From the NCBI GenBank assembly GCA_017447625.1, contig JAFSNB010000012.1, positions 1-36,640 on the forward strand: a DNA stretch of 36,640 nt, written 5' to 3'. Below, piece after piece: positions 10,683 through 36,488 of this stretch. This DNA is from Bacteroidaceae bacterium. GTDB taxonomy: Bacteria; Bacteroidota; Bacteroidia; Bacteroidales; Bacteroidaceae. The position numbers and the translations under genes were made by a program. Below the pieces are notes generated by a model. It did not search any database, was not told where the DNA came from, and worked only from the letters and a program-made list of their open reading frames with translations. The stretch's first letter is position 1. Each line of letters starts with the position of its first letter.

Positions 10683-10798
10683 TGATTAGCACACGACTGT
10701 ATTTTAATTAACACACAGCCGTATGTTAATTAACACACAGCCGTATGTTAATTAGCACACAGCCGTGTATCAATTAACACACAGCCGTGTGTTAATAT
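10683..10798. repeat. 22-bp hairpin tandem array (TAATTA spacer type)
   Basis: Five units at exact 22-bp spacing. Each is a 16-bp core of arms ACACAC and GTGTGT around AGCC, separated by a 6-bp TAATTA-type spacer (spacers at 10683, 10705, 10727, 10749, 10771, 10793). The last core (10777-10792) is perfect; two others have one arm mismatch; the first is the most divergent. With the flanking spacer the unit reads TAACACAC-AGCC-GTGTGTTA. It lies in a 538-base gap (10505-11041) that otherwise holds only a terminator and the M16 promoter. The array at 36401 has the same 6-4-6 plus 6 plan with different bases. Confidence 0.92.
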
Positions 10799-10956
10799 AT
10801 GAGTCGAGGGAAAACGGTCGATGAGCCATGGGGGAATAGTCAATAGAATAGGGGAGGGATTGTCGAAGTTCCCGATTGAGAATAGCCGTTTTGGGTTAAA
10901 AATTGGAAGAAGATGTTTTTTTCGCTTGTTTATGCGGAAGAGAAGGGGAAAAGCCG

Positions 10957-10964
10957 TACCTTTG
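10957..10964 (+). promoter_or_regulatory. -7 box (TACCTTTG) before the M16 peptidase
   Basis: TACCTTTG is an exact TAnnTTTG match 77 bases before the ATG. No good TTTG lies 19 bases upstream, so this is a half-promoter call. Confidence 0.5.
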
Positions 10965-11041
10965 CACAGGCTTATGGCTGAGAAAGAAGAAGTACTGCCT
11001 TATGACAGAAGACAAGAAAACAGAGGATTGAAACTTATTGC

Positions 11042-12289
11042 ATGAATATAACAACATTTGAAGCGGGCGGTCTGCGTGTGGTGTGCGCGCCTGGTGCCAC
11101 GGACGTGGTGTATGCTGGAATAACGGTGGATGCCGGTACGCGTGACGAGAAGGATACGGAGAGCGGAATAGCGCATTTCGTAGAGCACATGTCGTTCAAA
11201 GGAACGGCGCGGCGCAAGTCTATGCAGGTGCTGAACCGAATGGAAAACGTAGGGGCGGATCTGAATGCTTTTACCACTAAGGAGGACACCACTTATTATT
11301 CCGTATTTCTGCGGGAGCATCTGGCGCGTGCCATCGACCTTCTGTTAGACATAACGTTTCACTCCACCTTCCCGCAGACAGAGATGGATAAGGAGGTGGA
11401 GGTCGTCTGTGACGAGATTGAGAGCTATAACGACTCGCAGTCCGAACTGATCTATGATGATTTCGAGGCTCTGCTCTTCCCCGAACACCCACTGGGGCGC
11501 AGTATTCTTGGCAATGCCGACCGCTTGCACGAGTTCCGGACGGCAGACCTTCAAGCGTTCACCAGCAGGTTGTATCTCCCGCAGAATGCAGTGATGTTCG
11601 TGATGGGGAACGTGAGGCCGGAGGAAGTGAGGAGACTGGTTGAACGCGGTTGCGCAACCTATCCTTGTGTTGCTGTGGGTGAGGAGCGTGTGGCGCGTAA
11701 AGCTCCAGATATTATTGGCGGTAAGACCGCAGGCAAGGCGGAGCCTACCGTGATGAACAAAGGGGTGCATCAGGCGCATGTGGTGCTCGGTTCGCGGGCT
11801 TATCCCGTGACTCACCCGCTATATATGGCAGCTGCGCTAATGAATAACATCCTCGGTGGCCCCGGCCTGAACTCTCGTTTCTCAATATCCCTGCGTGAGA
11901 GGCGCGGCTTGGTTTATACAGTTGAGAGTACACTTACTGCCTATACAGACACTGGCGCTTGGACCACCTATTTCGGATGTGACCCAGCGGATGTCCGTCG
12001 TTGTCTGCGGTTGGTCGGCACAGAGTTGCGGCATCTGATAGAACGGCCTCTCACAGCGCATCAGCTGAGTGCGGCGAAAAGACAGATGAAGGGACAGCTC
12101 GGAGTGAGCTACGACAACTTCGAGAATGTGGCCATTGCAATGGGTAAGCGCTATCTGCATCACGGACTTACCACGACTCCCGAAGAACTCCTCGCAAAGA
12201 TAGATGCTGTGACGGCAGAGGAACTGCAGCAGGCGGCGGCAGAGCTGCTCGCGCCTGAGGCGATTAAGACGCTGATTTATATGCCGTGA
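11042..12289 (+). CDS. M16 (pitrilysin/insulinase) family zinc metallopeptidase
   Basis: 415 residues, the typical length of the single-unit processing-peptidase type found in Bacteroidetes. The zinc site is HFVEH (His45, Glu48, His49) with the distal ligand Glu125 in VVCDEIESYND, exactly 76 residues after His49, as the family requires. The second half carries the inactive M16_C domain (GGPGLNSRFSISLRERRGLVY, given as GGPGLNSRF then SISLRERRGLVY). There is no signal peptide, so it should be cytoplasmic. It degrades or trims peptides; the substrate is unknown. It ends convergently with the wbqC-like gene. An overlapping upstream frame at 10821-11045 is not considered a gene. Confidence 0.93.
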   Translation: MNITTFEAGGLRVVCAPGATDVVYAGITVDAGTRDEKDTESGIAHFVEHMSFKGTARRKSMQVLNRMENVGADLNAFTTKEDTTYYSVFLREHLARAIDLLLDITFHSTFPQTEMDKEVEVVCDEIESYNDSQSELIYDDFEALLFPEHPLGRSILGNADRLHEFRTADLQAFTSRLYLPQNAVMFVMGNVRPEEVRRLVERGCATYPCVAVGEERVARKAPDIIGGKTAGKAEPTVMNKGVHQAHVVLGSRAYPVTHPLYMAAALMNNILGGPGLNSRFSISLRERRGLVYTVESTLTAYTDTGAWTTYFGCDPADVRRCLRLVGTELRHLIERPLTAHQLSAAKRQMKGQLGVSYDNFENVAIAMGKRYLHHGLTTTPEELLAKIDAVTAEELQQAAAELLAPEAIKTLIYMP

Positions 12290-12302
12290 TGAGGCGGGAT
12301 AT

Positions 12303-12326
12303 CGTTAAACCGTAATTCCGTTAGTC
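12303..12326. repeat. 8-bp degenerate tandem repeat
   Basis: Three units, CGTTAAAC, CGTAATTC, CGTTAGTC, in the gap between two convergent genes, running into the last codons of the wbqC-like gene. It is short and degenerate, so its identity as a repeat rests on the resemblance to 127-158. Confidence 0.55.
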
Positions 12327-12959
12327 TTTCAGGCTCTTCTTCAAGGTGATTAGCCCTTCCGGACCCATGTTAAAGAGGAGGTCTATAATGCTGAGGTTTG
12401 GCAGGAAGCCTAAGCGCTGCTGGAAAACTTGGTAATAGGGCTGTGGGTGGAAATGAATGGGGTGTTCTGCGGGCTCTTCTGTGTAAGGGCAGCGGGGAGA
12501 GATTGTGGCGCGGAGGTCGGTGTATTCACCTTCTGGGTGGATGAAAGCGGAGGTAAAGCTGGTGCGAGTGTCTATGTCAAGCAGGGAGCAGATGAGTCGC
12601 TGCAGGGCTTCGTTGTAATCTATGAGGAAGCCAGCCGGCTTGTCATAGAAGGGCAGGAAGTCATCTGCATAGTATTCGAAGAAAGGGGAGTGGCCGTAGG
12701 CACTTCGGATTGCGTTCCAGTGGTGGTGACGCCACGCACCGTGGTCGCTGATGCGAAGATCGCGTATCTCTGCATGTGATGAGGCTTTCTCCAACGGTAT
12801 GCTGAGGGCAACAGGCCCGTCTGGACCTGCTATTATGCAACGGTTGCGATATGTCTGTTTCAGGTAATGCTCATGGATATCTATGAGTGCTTCGTCTGCT
12901 TTGGCGAGGTGAGCATAGTACTGAACGGGTGCGAGGTACGCGGTGGAAAGGAGTAGCAT
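12321..12959 (-). CDS. WbqC-like family protein
   Basis: 212 residues. The sequence from LSTAYLAPVQYYAHLAKAD through QTYRNRCIIAGPDGPVALSIPL (given in two parts) and FFEYYADDFLPFYD is typical of the WbqC-like family, named after a gene in O-antigen clusters. The biochemical role is uncertain. In many Bacteroides relatives this gene sits beside lepB; here it is 27 bases downstream of dprA, in what looks like a thioesterase-dprA-wbqC operon. No signal peptide or membrane segment. Confidence 0.85.
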   Translation of the reverse strand: MLLLSTAYLAPVQYYAHLAKADEALIDIHEHYLKQTYRNRCIIAGPDGPVALSIPLEKASSHAEIRDLRISDHGAWRHHHWNAIRSAYGHSPFFEYYADDFLPFYDKPAGFLIDYNEALQRLICSLLDIDTRTSFTSAFIHPEGEYTDLRATISPRCPYTEEPAEHPIHFHPQPYYQVFQQRLGFLPNLSIIDLLFNMGPEGLITLKKSLKD

Positions 12960-12963
12960 AAAC

Positions 12964-12998
12964 TGTCAACTATCAATTGTCAACTGTCAAATTTCAAT
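12964..12998. repeat. 7-bp degenerate tandem repeat
   Basis: Five heptads in a row: TGTCAAC, TATCAAT, TGTCAAC, TGTCAAA, TTTCAAT. The stretch forms the spacer between dprA and the wbqC-like gene and extends into the last three codons of dprA. Confidence 0.8.
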
Positions 12999-14111
12999 TA
13001 AGTGATAACGATTGCCTGCCATGAGGCGGACGACGCCCTTCATCTCAAGCTCAATCATCATTGGAGTGAGGCGTGGCAGGGGGAGATTGAGCGCGTCAGC
13101 AAGGGCTGAGGCAGACAAGTCACCGTCAGCGCGGTTGAGGGCATCTACGGCTTGCTGCTCTTCGGGAGAGAGCATCGGGAAGAGGGTGGGCTGCTTCGCG
13201 GCTTCTTTTTCAGTTTCTTCAGGCATCCAACCCATATCTTCGAGGAAGTCCTCTGCGGAGGTTATTAGGCGTGCCTTATCTCTGCGTATGAGGTCGTTGC
13301 AGCCGGCAGACTGCTCATCTCCGACACGTCCGGGGAAGGCGAATACATCGCGAGCGTATCCGAAGGCCATGTCCGCTGTTATGAGCGAACCGCCGTGACT
13401 GGCGCTCTCGACAACAATAGTGGCATCCGAAATACCAGCAACGATGCGGTTGCGCTGCACGAAATTCATCTTGTCTGGGCGCGTGTGGCTCATGTATTCA
13501 GTAATGAGCCCTCCCTGCTTGAGCATTTCCACGGCTGTGGAGCGGTGAGTGCGGGGATAGATCTCATCCAGTCCGTGAGCCAGGACTCCGACCGTCGGGA
13601 GCTGATGGCTGAGACTGGCGCGGTGGGCGGCTACATCTATGCCATAGGCCAGTCCGCTGACGATGAGAGTGTCGGGCGCCAGGCGGCTGAGTCCTTTGAC
13701 AAATTCATTGCAGATGTCACGTCCGCGCTCGGTGCAACGACGTGTGCCCACGATGCTGACGACGTGTGTAGCGTTGAGATTAGCCTTCCCAAGAAAGAAG
13801 AACACCACCGGGGCATCCTCGCAGTTGCGCAGGCGGGCGGGGTATGCCTCGTCGTTCCATCCGATGATGCTGATGTGGTGGCTTTGGGCGTATGCCAACT
13901 CGCTCTCGCAACGTGGCAATGCGGTGTCAAGATCCGAGAGAGCGTCAGCCGCGCGTGGACTCAGGTTATCAATTGAGCGCGCTATGTAGCGTCTGTTTGC
14001 GAATATTTCTGTGGCGCTCCCCATCGTCTGCAGCAGTTGTTGCTGCTGAGCTATGGAGATACGCGTCTGGCAGGCCAGTGCCATCAGATAGATAAGTTCC
14101 TGATCGTTCAT
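12987..14111 (-). CDS. dprA: DNA-processing protein DprA
   Basis: 374 residues. It loads RecA on incoming single-stranded DNA during transformation. Domain order: an N-terminal helical SAM/HhH-like part (1-75), the Rossmann-like core with VGTRRCTERG (121-130), SGLAYGIDVAAH (152-163), a FVQRNRIVAGIS segment and SASHGGSLITADMA, then a C-terminal winged-helix (about 315-374, LSASALADALNLPLPRL). Length and motifs are normal. It overlaps the thioesterase gene by 4 bases. Many bacteria that are not known to be transformable keep dprA. Confidence 0.95.
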   Translation of the reverse strand: MNDQELIYLMALACQTRISIAQQQQLLQTMGSATEIFANRRYIARSIDNLSPRAADALSDLDTALPRCESELAYAQSHHISIIGWNDEAYPARLRNCEDAPVVFFFLGKANLNATHVVSIVGTRRCTERGRDICNEFVKGLSRLAPDTLIVSGLAYGIDVAAHRASLSHQLPTVGVLAHGLDEIYPRTHRSTAVEMLKQGGLITEYMSHTRPDKMNFVQRNRIVAGISDATIVVESASHGGSLITADMAFGYARDVFAFPGRVGDEQSAGCNDLIRRDKARLITSAEDFLEDMGWMPEETEKEAAKQPTLFPMLSPEEQQAVDALNRADGDLSASALADALNLPLPRLTPMMIELEMKGVVRLMAGNRYHLIEI

Positions 14112-14473
14112 GGGACTAAAGCATCAAGCTCGGGCGTAGTGCCGAGACGTCCGTTGATTAGGCATACAGTTGTAACCTCGCTGCGGTTAGCCAGCACACG
14201 GTCGGGGAGACGGAAAATCTTCTGGTCGAAGATGTATTTAACCCCTTCCTTGCGCACGTCCAGTGTGCAGATGAACTCGTCACCGCTGCGCAAAGGTACT
14301 TTGAACTGCATGTTCACGCGTGCCACGACAGCATCGATGCCCTGGTTGTGCAGTTCGGCGAAGCTTATACCGTGCGAGAGCATGAACTCGTGCCGGGCGT
14401 GCTCGCAGTAATGCATATAATTTGCGTTGTTTACTATGCCTTGTAGGTCACATTCATAATCGCGGACCTTCAT
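14108..14473 (-). CDS. Acyl-CoA thioesterase, 4HBT (YbgC/FadM-like) family
   Basis: 121 residues from the ATG at 14473; an in-frame TTG two codons upstream (14479) is the less likely alternative. Single hotdog domain with the active-site motif CDLQGIVNNANYMHY, catalytic Asp at residue 9, followed by an EHARHEFM helix. It should hydrolyse an acyl-CoA thioester; the chain length is not evident. It is the first gene of the run with dprA (ATGA overlap) and the wbqC-like gene. Confidence 0.88.
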   Translation of the reverse strand: MKVRDYECDLQGIVNNANYMHYCEHARHEFMLSHGISFAELHNQGIDAVVARVNMQFKVPLRSGDEFICTLDVRKEGVKYIFDQKIFRLPDRVLANRSEVTTVCLINGRLGTTPELDALVP

Positions 14474-14478
14474 TTTCA

Positions 14479-14540
14479 ATTAATAATTCATAAATCATAA
14501 TTCATAATTATGAGCTTGCGCTCAACAATACGTCATAATT
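14479..14540. repeat. Dispersed intergenic element with 7-bp repeats, copy 2
   Basis: Heptads ATTAATA, ATTCATA, AATCATA, ATTCATA, ATTATGA (14479-14513), running into the 36-bp element (14505-14540) that is nearly identical to 6103-6138 in the same orientation. It fills the gap between the DUF2851 gene and the thioesterase gene. Confidence 0.85.
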
Positions 14541-14549
14541 GGGCTTGCT

Positions 14550-15854
14550 TTACTTTTTCTCTCTCTTCAGGTATTCATAACCGAAGCGGCAGCGGAGGCA
14601 GTCTATGCGGTCGCAGTATTCGCGCTTGAGCTGAATGAGAGCCTGGCTGTCGGCAGCCGACTCTACGCTGAGGCCGCATTGCTTCCATTGGCGCATGATG
14701 AAATTTGCCTCCGGTTTCAGTTGCTCCAGAATGTTGACGGCACGCTCCTGCTCTTCTTCGTTGTCTGTGCGGCTTCCGTGGGCGAAAAGGAGCGGCACGA
14801 TCGTGTTTATGATGATTAAGTCGCAGCTTGAGGCAGAGAGCCGTTTCTCGCTGGAGCGTGATGGGAGACCGAAGAGGTAATGCTCGCGCCAGTAGTCTGA
14901 AGGAGCTACCGAGAGAGCTTTATGGAGGTCTTCGCGCGACGATGCGCGGATAAGTGTGGCAAAGCTGGCTGTGTCTTGGTGATAGAGCTGAGCCAGTTGA
15001 ACGAGCCTGAGATGCGGAAAATTCTGCGGTCGAAGGCGCAGGAAACGCCACAGATGTGACGGCATAGGCGGTTCGAGCGAGAACTTGTGTGAGAGATAAG
15101 CGTATTCGGAGCGCAGCCGCTTGAGATATGCGTCTTGCTCAGCCGCTTCGCGGGCGCTCTGTGGAATAGCTTCTGGCGCGAGCAGACCTGCGGTGCCGAG
15201 GAAGAGGGCTTCCAGCTGGAAGAGATCGTCACGGTGCTTGGCGCAGGCGTGGAGCGGCAGGTGAGTGGCCCACTGCTCAAACGGGTCGCCGTTGATTCCG
15301 AATCCGAAGTTGCGTGCGAGCGTCACAAATGCCATACGTTCCCAGTCGCCTTGAAGGGCATCCAAACGGGCGAGACAGCGGTCGGCCCGCTGTTTGAGCC
15401 GCTCGAAGAGCAGGGCACTCATCCACGAGTGGACCGTAAGCGACGGCAGCGAAGGGATAATGCGCCAGCAGCGTGGATAGTCCTCCGTTTGGCACAGAGT
15501 GTCATATTTCTGGCGTATGTCGTCGGGAATAGGCAACTGAAGCTGTGGCAGGGTACGTCCGCCTGCAGTCTCAACCTCCATGTCCGCCTCGCATACCACA
15601 TGCAGGATGACGCTGTTATAAGCGGCGTCGGTCTGGTGTCCGTGGCGAAACCAGTCGCTTGAGCGCAGATGCATCTCCACGTTACCTACCCACATCGTGC
15701 CGCCGACTTTCACCTTGGCGTTGAAGAAGTCCGGACCGGCATTCCTGTTGTGGAGTCCCGGGTCCAGGATTTCAACCTTCTGGCCATCGGTGGTGAGCAG
15801 TTCGGCGAGAGGCAAAATTCGCTGTTTCCAGATGTAATGTAGCAGCTTTTCCAT
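14550..15854 (-). CDS. DUF2851 family protein
   Basis: 434 residues, a usual length for this Bacteroidetes family. The N-terminus (MEKLLHYIWKQRILPLAEL, then GQKVEILDPGLHNRNAGPDF) and GNVEMHLRSSDWFRHGH are its recognisable parts. These acidic and His residues look nuclease-like, but I do not know a proven function. The C-terminus has a Cys cluster, CDRIDCLRCRFGYEYL, which may bind metal. It is transcribed away from dapB and has its own -7 box. Confidence 0.85.
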   Translation of the reverse strand: MEKLLHYIWKQRILPLAELLTTDGQKVEILDPGLHNRNAGPDFFNAKVKVGGTMWVGNVEMHLRSSDWFRHGHQTDAAYNSVILHVVCEADMEVETAGGRTLPQLQLPIPDDIRQKYDTLCQTEDYPRCWRIIPSLPSLTVHSWMSALLFERLKQRADRCLARLDALQGDWERMAFVTLARNFGFGINGDPFEQWATHLPLHACAKHRDDLFQLEALFLGTAGLLAPEAIPQSAREAAEQDAYLKRLRSEYAYLSHKFSLEPPMPSHLWRFLRLRPQNFPHLRLVQLAQLYHQDTASFATLIRASSREDLHKALSVAPSDYWREHYLFGLPSRSSEKRLSASSCDLIIINTIVPLLFAHGSRTDNEEEQERAVNILEQLKPEANFIMRQWKQCGLSVESAADSQALIQLKREYCDRIDCLRCRFGYEYLKREKK

Positions 15855-15876
15855 GTCAAAGTAGGTTAAGACAGGA

Positions 15877-15884
15877 CAAAAGTA
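15877..15884 (-). promoter_or_regulatory. -7 box (TACTTTTG) before the DUF2851 gene
   Basis: On the minus strand TACTTTTG lies 22 bases before the ATG at 15854. A TTTG lies upstream but at 23 rather than 19 bases, so the upstream half is weak. Confidence 0.5.
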
Positions 15885-15937
15885 GTAAATAAACGCTTAA
15901 AAAGATACAAACTGGCCGTAATTTCACAAAAAAGCAG

Positions 15938-15945
15938 TACTTTTG
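15938..15945 (+). promoter_or_regulatory. -7 box (TACTTTTG) before dapB
   Basis: TACTTTTG ends 22 bases before the dapB ATG. No TTTG was seen at the right distance upstream. It mirrors the opposing TACTTTTG box at 15877. Confidence 0.5.
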
Positions 15946-15967
15946 GCGCGTTTTTACAGGTATAGAT

Positions 15968-16702
15968 ATGAAAATAGCATTAATTGGATACGGTAAGATG
16001 GGCAAAATGATAGAGCAGATTGCCTTGGAACGCGGACATGAGATAGTTAGCATTATCGACATCGACAATCGCGAGGATTTTGACAGCGAGGCTTTCTCCA
16101 GCGCCGACGTAGCAATAGAATTCACGGCTCCGCATGTTGCCTATGACAACTATCTGAGGGCCTTTGCCCACAACGTGAAGGTGGTCTCCGGTTCAACCGG
16201 CTGGCTGAAGGAGCACGGCGAAGATGTCAGGAAACTCTGTACAGAAGGCGGTCAGACTCTGTTCTGGGCCTCGAACTTCTCTGTTGGCGTAGCTGTCTTT
16301 TCAGCTGTGAACCGCTATCTGGCTCGGTTGATGAACAAGTTCCCCCAATATGACCCTCACATGGAGGAGACACATCATATTCATAAGTTAGACGCGCCGA
16401 GCGGTACGGCTATCACGTTGGCAGAGGGAATTATTGGTGAACTGGACCGTAAGGAGAAATGGGTGAAGGGCGAGTCAAATGCCCCGTATGCAGCCGACAC
16501 ATTGCGAATCGACTCCCTGCGCAGAGGCGAGGTACCGGGCATCCACACAATACGCTATGACAGCGATGCAGACTGCATAACCATCAGTCACGACGCGCAC
16601 AGCCGCAAAGGATTCGCTCTTGGAGCAGTGCTGGCTGCTGAATACACGGCCACTCATAGCGGGTTGCTGACGATGGATGATCTTTTCCCTGAATTAGTTT
16701 AG
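15968..16702 (+). CDS. dapB: 4-hydroxy-tetrahydrodipicolinate reductase
   Basis: 244 residues. It reduces dihydrodipicolinate in the diaminopimelate and lysine pathway, using NAD(P)H. The N-terminus has the nucleotide-binding IALIGYGKMGKMIEQIA; the middle has VSGSTGW; the signature HHIHKLDAPSGTA follows, with the catalytic His-His and Lys. Slightly shorter than the E. coli enzyme, as usual in Bacteroidetes. It is first of a run with lepB (28 bases) and the sulfhydrylase gene. Confidence 0.96.
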   Translation: MKIALIGYGKMGKMIEQIALERGHEIVSIIDIDNREDFDSEAFSSADVAIEFTAPHVAYDNYLRAFAHNVKVVSGSTGWLKEHGEDVRKLCTEGGQTLFWASNFSVGVAVFSAVNRYLARLMNKFPQYDPHMEETHHIHKLDAPSGTAITLAEGIIGELDRKEKWVKGESNAPYAADTLRIDSLRRGEVPGIHTIRYDSDADCITISHDAHSRKGFALGAVLAAEYTATHSGLLTMDDLFPELV

Positions 16703-16724
16703 AGTTTAATGTTTAAAGTATAAA
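16697..16724. repeat. 7-bp degenerate tandem repeat
   Basis: Four heptads, GTTTAGA, GTTTAAT, GTTTAAA, GTATAAA, covering the dapB stop codon and the spacer before lepB. Confidence 0.65.
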
Positions 16725-16730
16725 GAAATT

Positions 16731-18206: not shown

Positions 18207-18229
18207 TTTAAGGTTTAAAGAAATAATAT

Positions 18230-19507
18230 ATGAAACGCAATCTCGAAACATTATGTATTCACGGCGGGTGGAAACCCCGCAAGGGCGAGGCTCAGCAACT
18301 GCCAATCTATCAAAGCACAACATTCCGTTATGAGACCAGCGAGCAGATGGCACGCCTGTTCGATTTGGAGGATGAGGGCTATTTCTATACACGTCTGGCA
18401 AACCCTACCAATGACGCCGTGGCCGCTAAAATCAACGCTCTGGAAGGGGGCGTGGGATGTCTGCTTACCTCTTCCGGTCAGGCCGCCAATTTCTACGCCG
18501 TGTTTAACATCTGTCAGGCCGGTGACCACTTCATAACCTCCAACACCATCTATGGCGGCACCTTCAACCTCTTTGGTGTCACAATGAAGAAATTGGGCAT
18601 AGAGTGCACTTTCGTTGATCCCGATTGGGACGATGAGCGCATCGAGGCAGCCTTCCGTCCTAACACCAAATGTTTCTTCGGCGAGACAATAAGCAACCCT
18701 GGTGGAAATGTCTTTGACATCGAACGCTTTGCCAAGATTGCCCACGCCCACGGTGTACCCCTTATTGTGGATAACACCTTTGCCACGCCTATCAACTGCC
18801 GCCCGTTTGAGTGGGGTTGCGATATCGTGACACACTCCACGACAAAGTACATGGACGGACATGCTACACAGGTGGGAGGTGCTATAGTAGATAGTGGTAA
18901 TTTTGACTGGGAGGCGCATGCTGACAAATTCCCCGGACTTTGCACGCCGGACGAGAGCTACCACGGACTGACTTACACCAAGGCTTTTGGCCAAAAGGCT
19001 TATGTGACGAAGCTGGTGAGTCAGTTGATGCGCGACCTCGGCTCTATTCCTTCACCTCAGAACTGTTTCCTGCTGAATCTTGGTTTGGAAACCCTGCACC
19101 TGAGGATGCCCCGCCATTGTGAGAACGCACAGCGTGTGGCCGAGTGGCTGGAAGCTAATCCGAAAGTGGAGTGGGTTAATTATTGCGGTCTGCCAAAGAA
19201 CAAGTATTATCCTCTGGCACAGAAATACCTGCCCAATGGCTCGTGTGGCGTTATCGCCTTCGGACTGAAAGGCAACCGTGAGGATGCCATCCGCTTTATG
19301 GATAATCTGGATTTTGTATCAATCGTGACACATGTAGCCGATGCACGCACCTGTGTGCTGCATCCTGCCAGTCACACCCATCGTCAGCTGTCTGACGAGC
19401 AGCTGCGCGAGGCAGGTGTAGCTCCCGACCTGATACGTCTAAGTGTTGGTCTGGAGAATGTCGAAGACATCATAGCCGACTTGAATCAGGCTATGGAAAA
19501 GATGTAA
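18230..19507 (+). CDS. O-acetylhomoserine sulfhydrylase (PLP enzyme)
   Basis: 425 residues, the usual length of MetY-type enzymes and longer than cystathionine gamma-synthase. It makes homocysteine from O-acetylhomoserine and sulfide, in the cytoplasm. The PLP lysine is Lys206 in VTHSTTKYMDGHATQVGG; also visible are YTRLANPTNDAVAAKI, SSGQAANFYA and VDNTFATP. It follows lepB by 23 bases, probably in one transcript. Closely related gamma-family enzymes, such as methionine gamma-lyase, cannot be fully excluded. It ends 5 bases from the convergent THUMP-like gene. Confidence 0.9.
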   Translation: MKRNLETLCIHGGWKPRKGEAQQLPIYQSTTFRYETSEQMARLFDLEDEGYFYTRLANPTNDAVAAKINALEGGVGCLLTSSGQAANFYAVFNICQAGDHFITSNTIYGGTFNLFGVTMKKLGIECTFVDPDWDDERIEAAFRPNTKCFFGETISNPGGNVFDIERFAKIAHAHGVPLIVDNTFATPINCRPFEWGCDIVTHSTTKYMDGHATQVGGAIVDSGNFDWEAHADKFPGLCTPDESYHGLTYTKAFGQKAYVTKLVSQLMRDLGSIPSPQNCFLLNLGLETLHLRMPRHCENAQRVAEWLEANPKVEWVNYCGLPKNKYYPLAQKYLPNGSCGVIAFGLKGNREDAIRFMDNLDFVSIVTHVADARTCVLHPASHTHRQLSDEQLREAGVAPDLIRLSVGLENVEDIIADLNQAMEKM

Positions 19508-19512
19508 GGCAG

Positions 19513-25645: not shown

Positions 25646-25743
25646 GTGTTGATGTGCGTTTCTGTGGGGAAGACGATTGAATGGCCGAAAAGTTACAACT
25701 CCCGCCCATCTTTTAACATTCTTTTAGTTTTAAACCCATTTTC

Positions 25744-25811
25744 ACTTTCATCTTTCATCTCTAATCTTTCATCTTTTCTCTTCTTCTCTTTTCTCTTTTC
25801 TCTCCCCCTCG
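25744..25811. repeat. 7-bp repeat and polypyrimidine tract between sigma and anti-sigma genes
   Basis: Heptads ACTTTCA, TCTTTCA, TCTCTAA, TCTTTCA, TCTTTTC (25744-25778) run into an almost pure C/T stretch up to 25811. In the transcript this is a purine-rich leader of the anti-sigma gene within a 176-base gap. No hairpin was seen. Confidence 0.7.
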
Positions 25812-29484: not shown

Positions 29485-29505
29485 TTATAAATCTAAATCA
29501 CCTAC

Positions 29506-31839
29506 TTATTTCTTCCGGGTGTATCGGCGTGGGGTCTTGGCCTTCCCCTCCTGAGACTTAATGAGTTCCATGCATTCCTCGTATGTCATCTCCAGGATGC
29601 GCTCCTGGATGTTCTTGGGGATACGGTAGTTCTCGCCTTTATATACGAGATACGGGCCGTAGCGTCCGTTGAGAATCTCTAGATCTGCGTCTTCGTCGAA
29701 GGTCCTGAGGTGACGCTCGTCCTCTGCCTGTCTCTTCTGCTTGATCAGTTCGATGGCTTCTTCCAGAGTGATTGAGAGCGGGTCGGTTGAGGCCGGGATA
29801 CTGACGAACTTCTTCTGATGAAGTACGTAGTTACCGTATCGTCCGGTTCCTACGGTGACGTCATCACCCTCGAACTTACCGAGTGTGCGCGGCAGACGGA
29901 ACAACTCCAGTGCATCCTCCAGCGTGAGGGTTTCCAGACTCTGGTCTTTCTGCAACTGGGCAAAACGCGGTTTTTCGTGCTCGTCAGCCACACCCATCTG
30001 TACTACAGGACCGAAGCGGCCTATCTTCACGGAAACGACCTTGCCGGTCTGCGGGTCGGTGCCGAGGATACGTTCGCCCACGCGCAATTCGCTCTTGGAG
30101 TGAATGGTCTCGTCAACGAGCGGCTCCAGATCGCCCCAGAATTTCTGGATCATTTCCGTCCACTGTTCCTTGCCGTCAGCTATTGAGTCGAATTCCTTCT
30201 CCACGTCTGCGGTGAAGTTATAGTCCATAACCTCAGGGAAGTACTGCATCAGGAAGTCGTTCACCACGATTCCGGTGTCTGTGGGCAGCAGTCGTCCGCG
30301 CTCTGTGTTGGAGGCCACCGTGCGTATTTCTTCATGTTTTTTGCCGTTGCCGTCTATGGTGAGTATGAGGCACTCGTGCTCGTCGCCAGGCTTCTCTCCT
30401 TTGACCACATATTCGCGCTGTTGGATAGTGCTGATGATGGGTGCATATGTTGACGGACGTCCGATACCCAGCTCTTCCAGCTTCTTCACCAGACTGGCTT
30501 CGTTGTATCGTGTCGGGCGTTGTGTGTAACGTTCTGTGGCTGTTATGCCAACGATGCCGAGCTTCTGGCCGGCAGTCATAGATGGAAGGATATTGCCGGC
30601 ATTCTCATTTTCCACGTCCTCGTCAGTAGTCTCGCGATAGACCTTCAGGAAACCCTCGAACTTCACCACTTCGCCCGTTGCCACGAATTGCTCTTCGCGT
30701 CCGCTGATGCTGATTGTGGCCACAGTCTTCTCCATCTCTGCGTCTGACATCTGGCTGGCAATGGTGCGCTTCCAGATGAGGTCATAAAGGCGGCGTTCTG
30801 CCGGAGCGCTGTCTGTCAGTTCCTGACGGTCCATGTATGTCGGACGGATAGCTTCGTGAGCCTCCTGAGCGCCTTTGGTTGAGGTGTGGTACTGGCGTAT
30901 CTTAACATATTCCTCACCCATAGTCTCGCTGATAACCTTGCGGCTGGCACCGAGAGCCAGAGTGGAGAGGTTGACGCTGTCTGTACGCATGTATGTGATA
31001 AGTCCGCTCTCATATAGATGCTGCGCGACAAGCATAGTCTGTGCCACGGCGAATCCCAGCTTGTGCGCAGCCTCCTGCTGCAGGGTGCTGGTAGTGAATG
31101 GCGGTGCCGGCATGCGGCGCATAGGCTTTGTCTGAACATCATCTATAGTGAATTTGGCCTTGCTGGCAGCGTTCAGGAACTCTTCCACCTCTTGGCGTGT
31201 GGCGAAGCGGCGGTTAAGCTCGGCTCTCACCTCGCTTCCTGAGGGGAGACTGAGAAGAGCCGTTACTCTGTAGTAGGCCTCGCTCTGGAACGCCTGCACT
31301 TCGCGCTCGCGCTCCACGATAAGTCTCACGGCCACGCTCTGCACACGACCGGCACTCAGGCCTGGCTTCACCTTGCGCCACAGCACGGGCGAGAGCTTGA
31401 AACCGACTATGCGGTCCAGCACGCGGCGTGCCTGCTGAGCGTTCACCAGCGCCATGTCCACGCTGCGCGGGTGCTCGATAGCTTCTTGGATGGCCGGTTT
31501 CGTGATTTCATGGAATACGATGCGGCGTGTGGTCTCCGGCTTCAGTTTCAGCACCTCTTCCAGATGCCATGAGATAGCTTCTCCCTCGCGGTCTTCATCG
31601 GATGCGAGCCACACTATATCTGCTTTCTTTGCGCTTTGTCTCAGTTGTGTCACGACATGCTGCTTGTCAGCCGGCACCTCGTATTCGGGTTGGAACGTGT
31701 CCAGGTTGATGCTGAAACTCTTTTTCTTCAGGTCACGAATATGACCGTAAGAGGACATCACTTTATACTCCTTGCCCAGGAATTTCTCGATTGTTTTGGC
31801 CTTGGCTGGAGACTCTACGATAACTAAATTTTGGGGCAT
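29506..31839 (-). CDS. topA: DNA topoisomerase I
   Basis: 777 residues from the ATG at 31839 (MPQNLVIVESPAKAKTI). An in-frame start at 31887 would add 16 residues, but it lies upstream of the promoter box and adds nothing conserved. Type IA enzyme that relaxes negative supercoils. TOPRIM: Glu9 and SDEDREGE with Asp81, Asp83, Glu85; active-site Tyr283 in GLITYMRTDSVN. The C-terminus has repeated TopoI_C-type modules (GRFGPVVQMG, GRYGNYVLHQKKF, GRYGPYLVYKGENYRIP) in place of four-cysteine zinc ribbons. First gene of the aroK-speA-argB-sigma operon. Confidence 0.96.
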   Translation of the reverse strand: MPQNLVIVESPAKAKTIEKFLGKEYKVMSSYGHIRDLKKKSFSINLDTFQPEYEVPADKQHVVTQLRQSAKKADIVWLASDEDREGEAISWHLEEVLKLKPETTRRIVFHEITKPAIQEAIEHPRSVDMALVNAQQARRVLDRIVGFKLSPVLWRKVKPGLSAGRVQSVAVRLIVEREREVQAFQSEAYYRVTALLSLPSGSEVRAELNRRFATRQEVEEFLNAASKAKFTIDDVQTKPMRRMPAPPFTTSTLQQEAAHKLGFAVAQTMLVAQHLYESGLITYMRTDSVNLSTLALGASRKVISETMGEEYVKIRQYHTSTKGAQEAHEAIRPTYMDRQELTDSAPAERRLYDLIWKRTIASQMSDAEMEKTVATISISGREEQFVATGEVVKFEGFLKVYRETTDEDVENENAGNILPSMTAGQKLGIVGITATERYTQRPTRYNEASLVKKLEELGIGRPSTYAPIISTIQQREYVVKGEKPGDEHECLILTIDGNGKKHEEIRTVASNTERGRLLPTDTGIVVNDFLMQYFPEVMDYNFTADVEKEFDSIADGKEQWTEMIQKFWGDLEPLVDETIHSKSELRVGERILGTDPQTGKVVSVKIGRFGPVVQMGVADEHEKPRFAQLQKDQSLETLTLEDALELFRLPRTLGKFEGDDVTVGTGRYGNYVLHQKKFVSIPASTDPLSITLEEAIELIKQKRQAEDERHLRTFDEDADLEILNGRYGPYLVYKGENYRIPKNIQERILEMTYEECMELIKSQEGKAKTPRRYTRKK

Positions 31840-31866
31840 AATCCTAAATTTGTCGAAATTTGGGCG

Positions 31867-31874
31867 CAAATATA
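31867..31874 (-). promoter_or_regulatory. -7 box (TATATTTG) before topA
   Basis: On the minus strand TATATTTG lies 27 bases before the ATG at 31839. No TTTG at 19 bases upstream. It supports the shorter topA start. Confidence 0.6.
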
Positions 31875-31962
31875 GGCATTTATTCATTGATGCCGTTTTT
31901 TAATTAGGTATTTTTAATTCTTTTTCCCCTTTCTCCCTCATTTTTCTCTTTTCTGCCCTTTT

Positions 31963-31997
31963 CTTTTACTTTTTACTTTTTATTTTTTACTATTTGA
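31963..31997. repeat. 7-bp degenerate tandem repeat within a pyrimidine tract
   Basis: Heptads CTTTTAC, TTTTTAC, TTTTTAT, TTTTTAC, TATTTGA inside a T/C-rich gap between topA and the divergent flippase gene. Confidence 0.65.
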
Positions 31998-32044
31998 TTT
32001 ATTTGTTCTATCTTCGCGCCGAAATCTGCAAATAAAGATTATTT

Positions 32045-33517
32045 ATGGCACAATTAAAAGCCTTGATGAAGGACACTGCCATCTACGGACTGAGCAGTAT
32101 CGTGGGACGCTTCCTCAATTATCTCCTCGTGCCCCTGTACACTCATTATATGCCGCGTGAGACGGGCGACTATGGCGTAAGCACAAATGTCTATGCTTAT
32201 ACCGCGCTGATTCTCGTGCTGCTCACGTTTGGTATGGAGACCACTCTGTTCCGTTTCGCCAACGAAACTCCTGCCACAGGCTCATCGCGCGACATCGAGC
32301 GGTGGCCGGACATGGTTTTCTCCACCTCGTTCGGGTTGGTCGGAGCACTAACGGCCCTCTTCCTTGCCCTGCTGTTCGGTTTCATTGGCCCGATTAGCGC
32401 TCATTTGGGTTATGCAGATCATCCTGACTATTTGCTGATGATGGGAGCTGTGGTGGCAATGGATGCCTTGCAGGCGCTGCCGTTTAGCTACCTGCGTTTT
32501 CAGAAGCGTCCAATACGCTTTGCAGCCCTTAAACTGCTTTTTATAGCTCTCAACATCGGACTGAACCTGATTTACTTCGTCTTACTCGGCAAGACGTCCG
32601 TGTTCTATGTCTTCTTCATCAACCTGCTTTGTACGGGCTTTATCTCCCTGCTCTTTATCCCCGGTATTTTCCGCATCAGCTGGAACTTCTCTTTCCCGCT
32701 GCTTCGCCGTATGCTCTCTTACTCATGGCCGATTCTGGTTCTGGGCATAGCAGGCATCTTGAATCAGGTAGCGGACAAGATTATCTTCCCGCTGGTCTAT
32801 CCAGACTCAGCAGACGCTAATGTTCAGTTGGGCATTTACGGCAGTTGCGTGAAGATCGCAATGATAATGGCAATGATTACGCAGGCGTTCCGCTATGCTT
32901 ACGAGCCTATAGTCTTCGCCAAGGCCAAGGACGCGGACAAGAACGAGTACTACGCCGCAGCCATGAAGTACTTCATCATTTTCACCCTTCTGGCTTTCCT
33001 CTGCGTGGTGGGGTGGATGCCGCTGTTGCAGTACATCATCGGAGCGGGTTACCGCGAGGGACTTGGAGTTGTGCCGGTAGTTATGGCGGCAGAGATAATG
33101 ATGGGTATCTATTTCAACCTCTCTTTCTGGTATAAGCTCATTGACAAGACTATCTACGGAGCTATCTTCTCTCTGGCCGGATGTGCCGTACTTGTGACCT
33201 TCAACATCATCCTAATCCCTCGTCTCGGTTATTGGGCCTGCGCTTGGGGAGGTGTGGCAGGTTATGGCACGGCTATGGTTTTAAGCTATGTCGTGGGCCA
33301 GCGCAAGAACCCGATTCCCTATCCGATGCGTGACATCTGTCTCTACTTCCTTCTTACATTAATAATATATATATGTATGGAGCGGCTGCCAGAACAGTGG
33401 CCTTCGTGGGCACATATCGTCCTCAACACCGTCTTCATCTGCATCTTTGTGGCATACATCGTGAAGAAAGACCTCCCGCTGCGCGGCCTCCCCGTCATCG
33501 GGAAATACTTTAAATAA
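32045..33517 (+). CDS. Polysaccharide/oligosaccharide flippase (Wzx-like, MOP superfamily)
   Basis: 490 residues with 12 to 14 hydrophobic segments. The start, MKDTAIYGLSSIVGRFLNYL followed by VPLYTHYMPRETGDYGVST, is typical of Wzx/RfbX-type transporters that flip lipid-linked sugars across the inner membrane. Conserved polar residues are visible around MLSYSWPILVLGIAGILNQVADK and AGYREGLGVVPVV (each under the family pattern). No glycosyltransferases are nearby, so the substrate is open. Divergent from topA; the upstream region has only a poor promoter match (TATCTTCG at 32009). Confidence 0.88.
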   Translation: MAQLKALMKDTAIYGLSSIVGRFLNYLLVPLYTHYMPRETGDYGVSTNVYAYTALILVLLTFGMETTLFRFANETPATGSSRDIERWPDMVFSTSFGLVGALTALFLALLFGFIGPISAHLGYADHPDYLLMMGAVVAMDALQALPFSYLRFQKRPIRFAALKLLFIALNIGLNLIYFVLLGKTSVFYVFFINLLCTGFISLLFIPGIFRISWNFSFPLLRRMLSYSWPILVLGIAGILNQVADKIIFPLVYPDSADANVQLGIYGSCVKIAMIMAMITQAFRYAYEPIVFAKAKDADKNEYYAAAMKYFIIFTLLAFLCVVGWMPLLQYIIGAGYREGLGVVPVVMAAEIMMGIYFNLSFWYKLIDKTIYGAIFSLAGCAVLVTFNIILIPRLGYWACAWGGVAGYGTAMVLSYVVGQRKNPIPYPMRDICLYFLLTLIIYICMERLPEQWPSWAHIVLNTVFICIFVAYIVKKDLPLRGLPVIGKYFK

Positions 33518-33592
33518 TTCATAATGCTTAATTCATAATTCATAATGCAGAATCCCGAATAATCGTTTAATCGAATAATCGAATAACCGAAA
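33517..33592. repeat. 7-bp repeat (28-bp shared element) followed by 8-bp repeat
   Basis: 33517-33544 holds heptads ATTCATA, ATGCTTA, ATTCATA, ATTCATA; 28 bases (33519-33546) are identical to 6132-6159. Then 33561-33592 is four 8-bp units: AATCGTTT, AATCGAAT, AATCGAAT, AACCGAAA. Confidence 0.85.
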
Positions 33593-33601
33593 AGGCCGCC
33601 A

Positions 33602-33629
33602 ATCTATAATAGAATGTAAAATGTAGAAT
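33602..33629. repeat. 7-bp repeat, inverted match to 36128-36146
   Basis: Heptads ATCTATA, ATAGAAT, GTAAAAT, GTAGAAT. Nineteen bases (33611-33629) are the exact reverse complement of 36128-36146, so the pair flanks the S46 peptidase gene in opposite orientation. Confidence 0.75.
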
Positions 33630-33644
33630 TCGCCCCGCAGGTCT

Positions 33645-33675
33645 CCCCTCCCTCACGGGAGGGGGCGGGGGTGGG
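33645..33675. repeat. GC-rich palindromic element, copy 1
   Basis: CCCCTCCC-TCAC-GGGAGGGG (33645-33664) followed by GCGGGGGTGGG. Its plan matches the element inside the next gene at 33754. The host gap is otherwise AT-rich. Confidence 0.75.
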
Positions 33676-33707
33676 TCTTTAAATCGTAAAATCTTTAAAT
33701 CGTAAAA
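33676..33707. repeat. 16-bp direct tandem repeat (two copies)
   Basis: TCTTTAAATCGTAAAA occurs twice in a row, ending 8 bases before the S46 peptidase ATG. It can also be read as 8-bp units with an AATC core. Confidence 0.85.
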
Positions 33708-33715
33708 TAAGTAAG

Positions 33716-36055
33716 ATGTCTATCAACAAACACTTCTCGTTTCTCATTCTGCTCCCTCCCTTTAGGGAGGGCGGGGGGAGAGTCCTGGGCGGGGGGAGAG
33801 TCCTCTCTCTCTTTGCTTCCTGCCTCCTGGCAGCAACATTTTTCCTGTCGCAGAGCCTTGAGTGCCGTGCCGACGAAGGTATGTGGCTTATTGGTCGCAC
33901 CGACCCCAAAGCGATGGCTGTGGCACGCAGCCTCGGCCTGCAACTTACCGATGAGCAGCTCTATGGCGAGGACGGCACCAGTCTGAAGGACTGCGTCGTG
34001 GATTTCGGAGACTACTGCTCCGGAGTCATCGTCTCGTCCGACGGCCTCGTGTTCACCAACCACCATTGCGGCTATTCGGCCATCCAGAAACTCTCCACTC
34101 CCGAGGACGACATCCTCGACAACGGTTTTGTGGCAAAAACTCACGCCGACGAACGTCCCGCTGAGGGTCTCTTTGTGAAGGTTTGGCAGCGCACGCAGGA
34201 CATCACCGCCGAAATCACCGACTCACTGCGCCGGCTCTATGCCGATAAAGACCTTGAGCGCAAGGCCGGAAAGAACCGCGAGGCTGTAATCTACAGCAAG
34301 AACATCTCCCGCCTGCTTTCAATCGCCGCCCGCCGCGCCGAACGTACGGCAAAGAGAGACGGTGAGAAAGGTATAGTCTGTGATGCCAAGGCCTTCTATG
34401 GCGGCAGCGTGTTCCTTATCAACTACTATCGCAAGTACTCCGACATCCGCCTGGTCTTCACCGTTCCCCAGTGTCTCGGCAACTTCGGCGGCGACACAGA
34501 CAACTGGATGTGGCCCCGTCAGACGGCCGACTTCAGCGTGTTCCGCATCTATGCCGACTCTCTCGGTAACCCCGCTTCATATAGTGCCGAGAATATCCCT
34601 CTGCAACCGAAGCGCTGGGCTCGCGTCAGCATCGACGGTTACGATCAGGGCTCCTATTGCATGACCATAGGCTACCCTGGTTCTACCAGCCGCTACCTCT
34701 CTTCCTACGGAATCGAGGAGCGCACCACAGTTAATAACATCCCCGTAATCCAGGTGCGTGGCGTCAAGCAGGACGTCTGGAAGAAGTGGATGCGTGCCGA
34801 CCGTGCCATCAGCATCAAATACTCCTCCAAGTTCGCCCAGTCCAGCAACTACTGGAAGAACTCGCAGGGAATGAACGAGGCTGTGGCCCGTCTTGGCATA
34901 ATCAGCCAGAAGCAGCAGCGCGAACAGAACATCCAGCGCTGGTACGAAGCCGACAAATCCCGCAAGCAGCGTTTCGGCTCGATGTTATCCACTCTCAAGA
35001 AGGCATACAAAGAGCGCCACGACGCGCAGTACGCCCAGGGCTTTGCCAACGAGACCTTCAACCGAGGCATCGAAATCGTCAGCTTCGCCCGCTTGGCTGT
35101 CCGTTGTGCAGAGAGCCACACCAATTACCGCGCCGTGTTGGAGGAATATGTGTCCGACAGCTACAAGGACTACGACCCGCGTGTTGATGAAGAGGTGATG
35201 GCAGCTCTTCTCGAGAACTATGCCAAGCAGGTGTCGTCCAAATACCTGCCACGCTTCTATTCGGACATCCGCAAGAAATACAAGAACGACTATAAGGCCT
35301 TTGCTCACGACATCTTCGCGCAGAGCCGCCTCACCTCCTACAAGGGTTGGTACGGACTCGTTCATGCCAAAGTGCGTTCCGCCAAGACCCTCCCCGACTC
35401 GCTTGAGCAGGCGTTGGCTGACGAGCAGGCTTACTTGCAGCATGTGAATAGCGACCCCGCAGTACGCCTTTACACTCAGATTGCTGATATGACGAGTAAT
35501 GTGATTTCTCCGTCGCTCACCAAGACCGCTCCCGTGATCTCCTACAACGAGAACCTGCTCACCCAGTCTGTCCTGGAGATGGAGCAGGAGGAGCCGCACT
35601 ACAGCGATGCCAACTTCACCCAGCGCATGAGCTTCGGCATCGTGAGCGACTACACCAACGCCGGCACTCACCACGACCTGCAGACCACGATGCCGTCCCT
35701 ACTCGCCAAGATAGACCGCTCCGTGGATATCGATGACTACAAGGTTACGCCCGATGTGGCACGCATCCTGCGTGGCAAGGGCTATGGACGCTATGCCGAC
35801 AGTCGCACGCGCGACCTCAACCTCTGCTTCCTCACCACCAACGACATCACCGGCGGCAACTCCGGCAGCCCGATGTTCAACGGACGCGGCGAACTCATCG
35901 GCCTCGCCTTCGACGGCAACTGGGATGCCCTCTCCTCGGACATCAGTTTTGACAGCGGCCTCACCCGCTGCATCGGCGTCGATATCCGCTACGTCCTCTG
36001 GCTCATGGAACGTTGGGGCAACGCCTACCACCTCGTAAACGAAGTCCTGAAGTAA
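33716..36055 (+). CDS. S46 family dipeptidyl-peptidase, DPP7-like
   Basis: 779 residues. Exported serine exopeptidase that removes dipeptides from peptide N-termini. Catalytic His117 in TNHHCGY, the Asp within GGDTDNWMWPR, and Ser716 in GGNSGSPMF. The residue 18 after the Ser, which sets specificity in P. gingivalis enzymes (Gly in DPP7, Arg in DPP11), is Gly here (AFDGNWD), so broad hydrophobic preference is predicted. The mature part begins near ADEGMWLIG. The signal region is odd: MSINKHFSFLIL, then LPPFREGGGRVLGGGRVL encoded by a GC-rich repeat, then a second hydrophobic run ending QSLECRA. No in-frame ATG, GTG or TTG was seen between the repeat and that second hydrophobic run. No type IX tail. 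Confidence 0.92.
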   Translation: MSINKHFSFLILLPPFREGGGRVLGGGRVLSLFASCLLAATFFLSQSLECRADEGMWLIGRTDPKAMAVARSLGLQLTDEQLYGEDGTSLKDCVVDFGDYCSGVIVSSDGLVFTNHHCGYSAIQKLSTPEDDILDNGFVAKTHADERPAEGLFVKVWQRTQDITAEITDSLRRLYADKDLERKAGKNREAVIYSKNISRLLSIAARRAERTAKRDGEKGIVCDAKAFYGGSVFLINYYRKYSDIRLVFTVPQCLGNFGGDTDNWMWPRQTADFSVFRIYADSLGNPASYSAENIPLQPKRWARVSIDGYDQGSYCMTIGYPGSTSRYLSSYGIEERTTVNNIPVIQVRGVKQDVWKKWMRADRAISIKYSSKFAQSSNYWKNSQGMNEAVARLGIISQKQQREQNIQRWYEADKSRKQRFGSMLSTLKKAYKERHDAQYAQGFANETFNRGIEIVSFARLAVRCAESHTNYRAVLEEYVSDSYKDYDPRVDEEVMAALLENYAKQVSSKYLPRFYSDIRKKYKNDYKAFAHDIFAQSRLTSYKGWYGLVHAKVRSAKTLPDSLEQALADEQAYLQHVNSDPAVRLYTQIADMTSNVISPSLTKTAPVISYNENLLTQSVLEMEQEEPHYSDANFTQRMSFGIVSDYTNAGTHHDLQTTMPSLLAKIDRSVDIDDYKVTPDVARILRGKGYGRYADSRTRDLNLCFLTTNDITGGNSGSPMFNGRGELIGLAFDGNWDALSSDISFDSGLTRCIGVDIRYVLWLMERWGNAYHLVNEVLK
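33754..33804. repeat. GC-rich palindromic element, copy 2, with in-frame 18-bp duplication
   Basis: CCCTCCC-TTTA-GGGAGGG (33754-33771), then GGGCGGGGGGAGAGTCCT twice in a row (33769-33786 and 33787-33804). The duplicated unit is 18 bases, so the reading frame is kept and encodes GGRVLG then GGRVLS. It lies inside the signal-peptide part of the S46 peptidase gene. Confidence 0.9.
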
Positions 36056-36064
36056 GTCTTATAA

Positions 36065-36169
36065 ATTCTATATTCTATCTTCTATATTCTATATCCTATA
36101 TCCTACATCCAACATCTTCCATTCTACATTCTACATTTTACATTCTACATTTTACATTTCACATTTTAC
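36065..36169. repeat. Long 7-bp tandem repeat, 15 units
   Basis: Fifteen consecutive heptads drifting from ATTCTAT through ATCCTAT and ATCCAAC to ATTCTAC and ATTTTAC, starting 10 bases after the S46 stop codon. It is the longest heptad array in the window. No terminator hairpin was found for the S46 gene in or near it. Confidence 0.9.
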
Positions 36170-36197
36170 ACCAAATTGTTTTTTTTTGGAAAAATCA

Positions 36198-36308
36198 ACC
36201 GAATGTACCGAAATTTGTCATAACGCATTGAATATCAATCGCCCCGTTTTCGGTAGATTCCTCAAAAAATCTACCGAAAATTCGGTGCATTCCGGTAAAA
36301 ATGTACCG
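36198..36308. repeat. Nested inverted repeats with ACCGAA motifs
   Basis: Perfect 13-base arms TTTTCGGTAGATT (36247-36259) and AATCTACCGAAAA (36268-36280) with an 8-base loop. An outer imperfect pair is 36198-36216 and 36278-36296. ACCGA or its complement TCGGT occurs five times in 36198-36286. No T run follows, so it does not look like a terminator; a protein-binding region is possible. Confidence 0.75.
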
Positions 36309-36338
36309 CAAGGTGTTGCTTGTTTGAGTCTTTTTTAT

Positions 36339-36346
36339 TACCTTTG
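36339..36346 (+). promoter_or_regulatory. -7 box (TACCTTTG) before the candidate non-coding RNA
   Basis: TACCTTTG is an exact match; TTGC lies 19 bases upstream (one mismatch to TTTG). Transcription would start near 36353. No credible ORF starts downstream within the window. Confidence 0.6.
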
Positions 36347-36400
36347 TAACGGATTATCAGACCAGGATACAACGAGTCTTGTGTTTAGGTTCAGACTAAA

Positions 36401-36488
36401 GTGACATTCGTGTCACCTGCGGGTGACACGAGTGACACTTCCGAGTGACACATGTGTCACCTCCTTGTGACATTGATGTCACTTCTGT
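36401..36488. repeat. 22-bp hairpin tandem array (GTGACA type)
   Basis: Four units at exact 22-bp spacing (36401, 36423, 36445, 36467). Cores are GTGACA-TTCG-TGTCAC, GTGACA-CGAG-TGACAC (one arm mismatch), GTGACA-CATG-TGTCAC and GTGACA-TTGA-TGTCAC, with 6-bp spacers CTGCGG, TTCCGA, CTCCTT and TTCTGT. Arms are conserved while loops and spacers vary. The plan equals that of the array at 10683. Confidence 0.93.

Follow-up and report, generated by a model that had tools for sequence, protein, structure and literature searches.

Why do two tandem arrays on one contig differ in their bases and share the same palindromic 22-bp geometry? The question is raised by a contig of a Bacteroidaceae bacterium (assembly GCA_017447625.1, contig JAFSNB010000012.1, positions 1-36,640), the whole 36,640-nt stretch of which was analysed and is referred to below as the window. 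The two are members of a large class of short palindromic tandem repeats in rumen-type Bacteroidales, in which the 22-bp spacing is kept and the sequence changes by species, with some arrays located inside a protein gene. The source genomes are fragmented metagenome assemblies, in which the unit numbers of arrays may be collapsed, and genes were called by open-frame heuristics. The arrays in question are the following.

10683..10798, no strand: array 1, five 22-bp units with a core that is mostly ACAGCYGT and an AT-rich dyad spacer, TTAATTAA
36400..36490 (about), no strand: array 2, four 22-bp units with arms GTGACA/TGTCAC and variable centres

Two arrays with one dyad every 11 bp

As the original prediction had it, both are genuine palindromic 22-bp tandem arrays. 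Tandem Repeats Finder (TRF) assigns a period of 22 to each, with 5.1 copies in array 1 (10685-10796) and 2.9 copies in array 2 (36410-36472), and when position pairs are scored on an 11-bp lattice, 76% and 64% of them, respectively, are complementary at the best phase, compared to 27% and 25% when all 22 phases are averaged. A periodic palindrome has a second dyad half a period away from the first, so that each array amounts to one dyad per 11 bp, with two dyad types alternating. Hence, the division proposed earlier, namely, a 6-nt arm, a 4-nt loop, a second 6-nt arm and a 6-bp spacer, is only one of two ways to cut the repeat. In array 2, the proposed arms GTGACA/TGTCAC are present, but its second unit, GTGACACGAGTGACAC, does not form a hairpin when taken in its own frame. 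The arms of array 1 are longer in its last unit, reaching ATTAACACAC/GTGTGTTAAT.

Array 1 is a member of a family of 11 loci in its own genome, comprising array 1 itself, seven loci found by similarity and three found by core pattern; all ten exact pairs of array 1 cores recovered by the core-pattern search are spaced 22 bp, and no DNA-similarity match to array 1 was detected in the 60 other genomes searched. The 49 units read across the 11 loci include 41 distinct ones. Whereas the loop and the spacer of array 1 had been regarded as conserved, what stays fixed in the family is the outermost T/A pair and a centre that mostly reads ACAGCYGT, and the outer arm positions vary. Array 2 is part of a longer element of ~240-310 bp, including a promoter-like part, which is found at three loci of the genome (the window and two paralogues) and was not found in the 40 other genomes searched. 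A weak match to the array 2 query, restricted to the array, was obtained in G016 (E 2e-4), where the array (L011) is composed of other letters (TGTGCCA/TGGCACA) with the 22-bp period kept. Other 22-bp arrays, of the GTCACGGCCGTGACCCAATT, CCTTGG and CCAAGG types, adjoin the array 1 paralogues. At L027, and likewise at L028, the first pair of neighbouring arrays agrees in dyad phase modulo 11 despite differing in sequence.

The 22-bp class in related genomes

The earlier proposal that the same geometry in different bases reflects selection on a plan largely holds, with many further period-22 arrays found in the window's genome, its genus and relatives, and neither of the outcomes named there as refuting it was observed. 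In a TRF sample of 67 loci around M16 peptidase genes of Bacteroidales relatives (1.14 Mb; merged arrays with a score of at least 60), period 22 is seen in 57 of the 182 merged arrays and period 44 in 11, compared to 16 arrays with period 18, 14 with period 21 and 12 with period 14. Lag counts in relatives, made without TRF, yielded 32 sites at lag 22 and 14 at lag 44, with at most seven at any other lag between 12 and 59; with a shorter counting window, the numbers were 45 and 25, with at most 13 at other lags between 16 and 49. Among 13 loci from other phyla (187 kb), period 22 accounts for one of 11 arrays. Stretches sampled from the window's genus (20 genomes, 372 kb) contain seven lag-22 sites with differing units and also seven lag-21 sites, mostly simple-repeat-like. 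Stretches from other genera of the order (20, 253 kb) contain zero sites at lag 22 and two at lag 23, both in one genome.

There is considerable variation in core sequence and copy number among genomes, as revealed by whole-genome counts of core pairs separated by any gap from 0 to 30, with the backwards pattern as the control. The CGCCGCACGCGG core, counted in 16 genomes, forms 219 pairs in G067, 214 in G061 and 34 in G074, with 0-2 in the other 13 genomes. For the TAACACGTTA core, also counted in 16 genomes, the numbers are 209 in G068, 51 in G061, 27 in G071, 26 in G063 and 21 in G065, with 0-15 in the remaining 11. The GTCACACTAG core (15 genomes) is represented by 139 pairs in G062, 51 in G063, 38 in G071, 0-2 in the others and 0 in the window's genome. 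The control gave 0 in every genome. Among the matches listed, the spacing of core pairs is 22 by eye, save six of 21 in G061, and in the 40 arrays that were fetched, exact cores are always 22 apart, save two spacings of 44 in which the middle unit is altered. The aligned elements mostly consist of three to four inner units accompanied by less conserved outer units. Two core types are found together in each of G062, G063 and G071. Cores are concerted within genomes: in a comparison of unit consensus sequences from two orthologous loci, the M16 linker and the murE-mraY gap (25 of 27 arrays used), identity between the two loci of one genome was 0.71 (n=11, range 0.41-0.95). Across genomes, it was 0.53 for arrays from the same locus (n=144) and 0.51 for arrays from different loci (n=145), and shuffled units gave 0.44.

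These orthologous sites provide the best evidence for the class. In 14 of 66 M16 genes, an in-frame 22-bp array without a stop codon is located between the two domains, in all cases at 0.48-0.50 of the matched gene (lag-22 identity of 0.65 over 44 bp; at a threshold of 0.70, 12 genes). In the M16 tree (44 rows, linker removed), all 14 array genes fall within one 19-row clade with a support of 100/100. Among the five clade members outside the 14, L058 has the array of its near twin L093, just under the threshold, and no 22-bp array was found in the linkers of L059 and L070. The gene is of similar length with and without the array. The linker arrays of L047, L058 and L093 form a longer inverted repeat (CAGTAC... 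with ...GTACTG); the M16 core of L060 resembles that of these three loci, and its murE-mraY array has a different core.

At the murE-mraY locus, an array follows the murE stop codon in 13 of the 15 relatives that reach it (by eye), with differing cores, and gaps of 52 and 41 bp are found instead in L050 and L069. Within the genus, 50 of 57 murE-mraY gaps were read; arrays are present in L221-L228, and there is none in the window's genome (L251). The number of units varies, with five in L040 and two in L060. L040 and L046, with an identity of 0.95 in the 3' coding part of murE, have the same five-unit lattice with mostly the same spacers, whereas the three inner cores differ. Bacterial repeats seldom keep their structure at orthologous positions while losing their sequence, and turnover on a kept lattice points to a putative recogniser or copying process.

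Compensatory change in the arms, anticipated in the original prediction, is evident between genomes and weak inside the array 1 family, for which the numbers are given below. In 14 units from different genomes, hand-phased on the CACG centre, 52% of the cells pair across an axis through CA|CG, compared to 38% after column shuffling (z 5.5, 0/1000 shuffles), and inner arm pairs are seen as C-G, G-C, A-T and T-A. A palindrome test applied to individual TRF consensus units had little power, with 9 of 52 units at p <= 0.05 (mean 0.594 versus 0.508), and 18-bp arrays score equally in the per-array test (0.611 versus 0.505).

Candidate explanations

A length of 22 bp corresponds to about two helical turns. 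Each 22-bp unit would present two dyad sites, 11 bp apart, on the same face of the helix, and three to six units would form a phased platform for a putative oligomeric DNA-binding protein. Array-rich genomes carry a hundred or more unit pairs of one or a few core types, with cores more alike within a genome than between genomes, and the cores would be replaced over time on a fixed lattice, such that orthologous positions keep the array and lose its sequence. We tentatively prefer this reading, dyads in DNA every 11 bp bound by a putative protein and resembling in behaviour repetitive extragenic palindromic (REP) sequences or the BrickBuilt minisatellites of Porphyromonas gingivalis, over the explanations considered below, while regarding it as somewhat short of probable. 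Of the two mechanisms proposed earlier, the better fit is binding sites arranged along one face of the helix, and the poorer is a row of RNA hairpins. Given the abundance and countability of the arrays and their in-frame presence in a gene with many orthologues, the question of recognition is directly testable.

Several observations weigh against the DNA-binding platform. The protein, its binding mode and the route of homogenisation, through selection for binding or through elements copying one another, are inferred, and the several cores of the window's genome (the array 1, array 2 and CCTTGG types) would require several proteins or loose specificity. The agreement in phase between neighbouring arrays is incomplete: the third array of L028 is out of dyad phase, the phases agree partly in L025 (1.0, 1.5, 2.0) and L026 (9.0, 9.5, 2.0), and a single composite may have given rise to both L027 and L028 by copying. 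The covariation between genomes is inflated by relatedness, three of the 14 units being nearly identical (L038, L055, L080), and a neighbouring axis scores too (z 3.1, 0/1000 shuffles). Inside the array 1 family, complementarity is weak (321/451 versus 310.4 +/- 6.4 for shuffled columns), with the excess resting mainly on two position pairs and absent at arm positions 5, 7 and 10, counted outwards from the centre; furthermore, the usual axis does not mark a clear dyad in some GTCACACTAG units. In the M16 gene, a length of 1206 is common to clade members without a 22-bp array, so that length is no evidence for the array, and the array label requires six changes on the tree, four of which are forced by well supported branches, implying array gains and losses inside the clade. 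Finally, in a non-random 400-kb sample of the window's own genome that included four stretches with known arrays, lag 22 was narrowly ahead in one count (seven versus at most five at other lags) and tied with lags 16 and 44 in the second (seven each). This tie, together with the six changes on the M16 tree, slightly weakens the case for a bound platform and slightly strengthens that for replication slippage, discussed below.

A serious if doubtful alternative is that the arrays are selfish palindromic elements, similar to REP sequences or miniature inverted-repeat transposable elements (MITEs), that are moved in trans, with the unit being a transposase binding module and new families overwriting old ones. 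High copy number, either orientation relative to genes, intragenic copies and the coexistence of two core types in three genomes are all consistent with such elements, as are the fairly uniform inverted-repeat ends seen when 20 elements were aligned from each of two genomes, mostly AAACGCCGC...GCGGCGTTT in G067 and less regular in G068. By contrast, no Y1/REP-associated transposase (PF01797) was found in the window's genome, which is 73% complete, and a search of 14 array-bearing genomes gave matches over the cut-off in five, with strong ones (E below 1e-15) in three. In view of these sparse matches, we rejected a REP-associated tyrosine transposase (RAYT), or Y1 transposase, as a general driver. 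Moreover, transposition alone would not result in an array that is kept at orthologous positions while its core changes. A more far-reaching scenario, which we consider rather unlikely, is a genome-wide lattice system in which a trans-acting factor would impose the 22-bp palindromic periodicity at hundreds of sites and rewrite or select the cores in concert; if so, every species would write a code of its own into conserved positions, including in-frame sites within genes.

Also rather unlikely, in our estimate, is an origin of the arrays as neutral, functionless minisatellites through replication slippage assisted by hairpins, in which case the replication or repair machinery would set the 22-bp step. 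Changes in copy number by whole units, as between the murE-mraY arrays of L040 and L060, location in tolerant DNA (linker or intergenic), constancy of the period but not of the sequence, and the weak covariation of the array 1 family are all in keeping with slippage. On its own, however, slippage would not predict the covariation between genomes or the different cores of L040 and L046 with spacers kept.

It is improbable that the arrays act as RNA, with transcribed hairpins serving in mRNA protection or termination or as protein-binding sites, and the same low estimate applies to the version of this explanation in which a small RNA would include array 2. In its favour, all three copies of array 2 follow a similar promoter-like sequence, the murE-mraY and M16 arrays are located within presumably transcribed DNA, and divergent gene pairs rarely flank an array (4 of 86 by rough gene calls, with 26 inside open frames, some of them spurious; 3 of 20 in G068). 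Both window arrays also fold more strongly than shuffles, with z of -9.1 and -6.7 as RNA and -6.1 and -5.5 as DNA, and so does the L059 array (RNA z -3.6, DNA z -1.6). Nevertheless, arrays of the same plan at L055, L056 and L040 fold as RNA like shuffles (z -0.7, +0.8 and -0.1), and the best RNA fold of each window array is one long stem rather than a row, with two or three stems in the centroid fold of array 2 and in the DNA folds of the window arrays. Folding potential is thus not common to the arrays, and a row of RNA hairpins is unsupported as their common function. Array 1, in addition, sits between a terminator-like dyad and the next gene. The 20 G068 arrays display no orientation bias relative to neighbouring genes (5, 6, 3 and 6 in four classes), although palindromes would hide one; the corresponding test in G067 was useless because stop-free GC-rich arrays make false open frames. 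No Rfam match at the gathering threshold was found anywhere in the window, and array 2 was rejected as a conserved RNA family, given that a search of 41 genomes found its element in no genome but its own, at 3 loci. Overall, a lattice of dyads at the DNA level fits best, with the protein itself being putative.

Known repeats and the surroundings of the arrays

The closest comparison is with BrickBuilt, described in the available part of its source as a 23-nt MITE minisatellite of P. gingivalis with 19 copies in one genome and a variable unit number, predicted long stem-loops, dyad symmetry, an always intergenic location, a long leader and tail, and IS5-like ends; it is reported there for P. 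gingivalis and P. gulae, as one sequence family (PMC4596501). The arrays described here are from the same order and share with BrickBuilt a near-equal unit length, predicted long stem-loops, dyad symmetry, a variable unit number and flanking segments that end in inverted repeats, but differ in their period of 22, genome-specific sequences, unit pairs numbering up to hundreds, exchange of cores at orthologous positions and, unlike the always intergenic BrickBuilt, in-frame presence in the M16 linker. The BrickBuilt ends given in that part of the source (GAGACC...) were not seen by eye, without a systematic scan, in the 20 + 20 aligned elements, which end AAACG-like, and a reading of the array 1 family flanks by eye, likewise without a systematic scan, revealed no BrickBuilt-like IS5 ends. 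Period-23 arrays, with the period of BrickBuilt, are present in some relatives (L068, L069, L071, L196). The 22-nt tandem period has a precedent in the same order, as 22-, 23- and 41-nt tandem direct repeats were noted earlier in P. gingivalis W83, with neither locations nor palindromy stated in the part of the source available (PMC4596501). The present class may make minisatellites of the BrickBuilt type one case of a wider class.

With REP sequences and bacterial interspersed mosaic elements (BIMEs), as portrayed in the available part of PMC3733652, the arrays share a short palindromic unit, clustering, families specific to a species, intragenic copies and a high copy number; the last is seen in relatives, whereas the two families of the window have few copies in their genome (11 and 3 loci). 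Unlike REP and BIME, they form a 22-bp head-to-tail lattice and are not consistently accompanied by a RAYT. In the arrays read by eye, without a systematic scan, no constant end tag like the GTAG/CGTC tag of REPs was seen; CGTC-type REPs, too, are said in that part of the source to lack a dedicated transposase (PMC3733652). The intergenic TAACTGA heptamer arrays, abundant tandem repeats found in genomes including five Bacteroidetes, differ in their 7-bp non-palindromic unit of fixed sequence, according to the part of the source available (PMC4679880). As for the terminal inverted repeats of MITEs, most G067 elements end AAACG/CGTTT, but a periodic palindrome alone yields such ends. Rickettsia palindromic elements are palindromic repeats kept in frame in protein genes, a similarity to the M16 arrays, but they are larger, single, from a different phylum and not organised as 22-bp tandem arrays. 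A CRISPR array was rejected because the units abut at 22 bp without longer unique spacers. No description of a named 22-bp class with exchanged cores was found in the open-licence literature. Overall, the class appears to work like the REP and BrickBuilt palindromic repeats and was assigned to neither.

The features surrounding the two arrays in the window are as follows.

11042..12289, + strand: M16 peptidase gene downstream of array 1, assigned by a Pfam match, with no array in its own linker, unlike its orthologues in a related clade, where the linker holds an in-frame 22-bp array
36248..36399, + strand: left part of the dispersed element carrying array 2, with an inverted CGGTAGATT/AATCTACCG motif followed by promoter-like TACCTTTG
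36500..36640, no strand: multi-copy repeat starting just right of array 2, in which the contig ends

On one side of array 1 is the terminator-like dyad, recognised by eye at ~10558-10597, and on the other is the M16 peptidase gene, from 11042. In addition to array 1, the region at 7760-11040 contains a 762-aa gene and a 68-aa open reading frame without a Pfam match; the close relative L031 has only ~200 bp (8182-8378) in its place. L031, the closest relative found, carries long 18-bp and 28-bp tandem arrays at 18617-19127. The part of the element left of array 2 is similar in both paralogues, L009 and L010, and its TACCTTTG sequence at 36339-36346, ahead of array 2, is presumably a Bacteroidetes-type -7 element. 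Copies of the repeat that extends rightwards from ~36500 are found near the ends of contigs C1, C21, C25 and C32, and stretches resembling it are also present in related genomes (L014, L015); this repeat is probably an insertion sequence and is a separate element from array 2. Intergenic tandem repeats of heptamer type (ATTCTAC, TTTCATC and similar) occur in the window at 36065-36170, 25740-25803 and 31959-32000, as well as in L253, L258 and L250, and look like a second abundant repeat class in the genus, comparable with the TAACTGA repeats as described in the available part of PMC4679880. Such heptamer repeats are also found in some of the murE-mraY gaps that have no 22-bp array.

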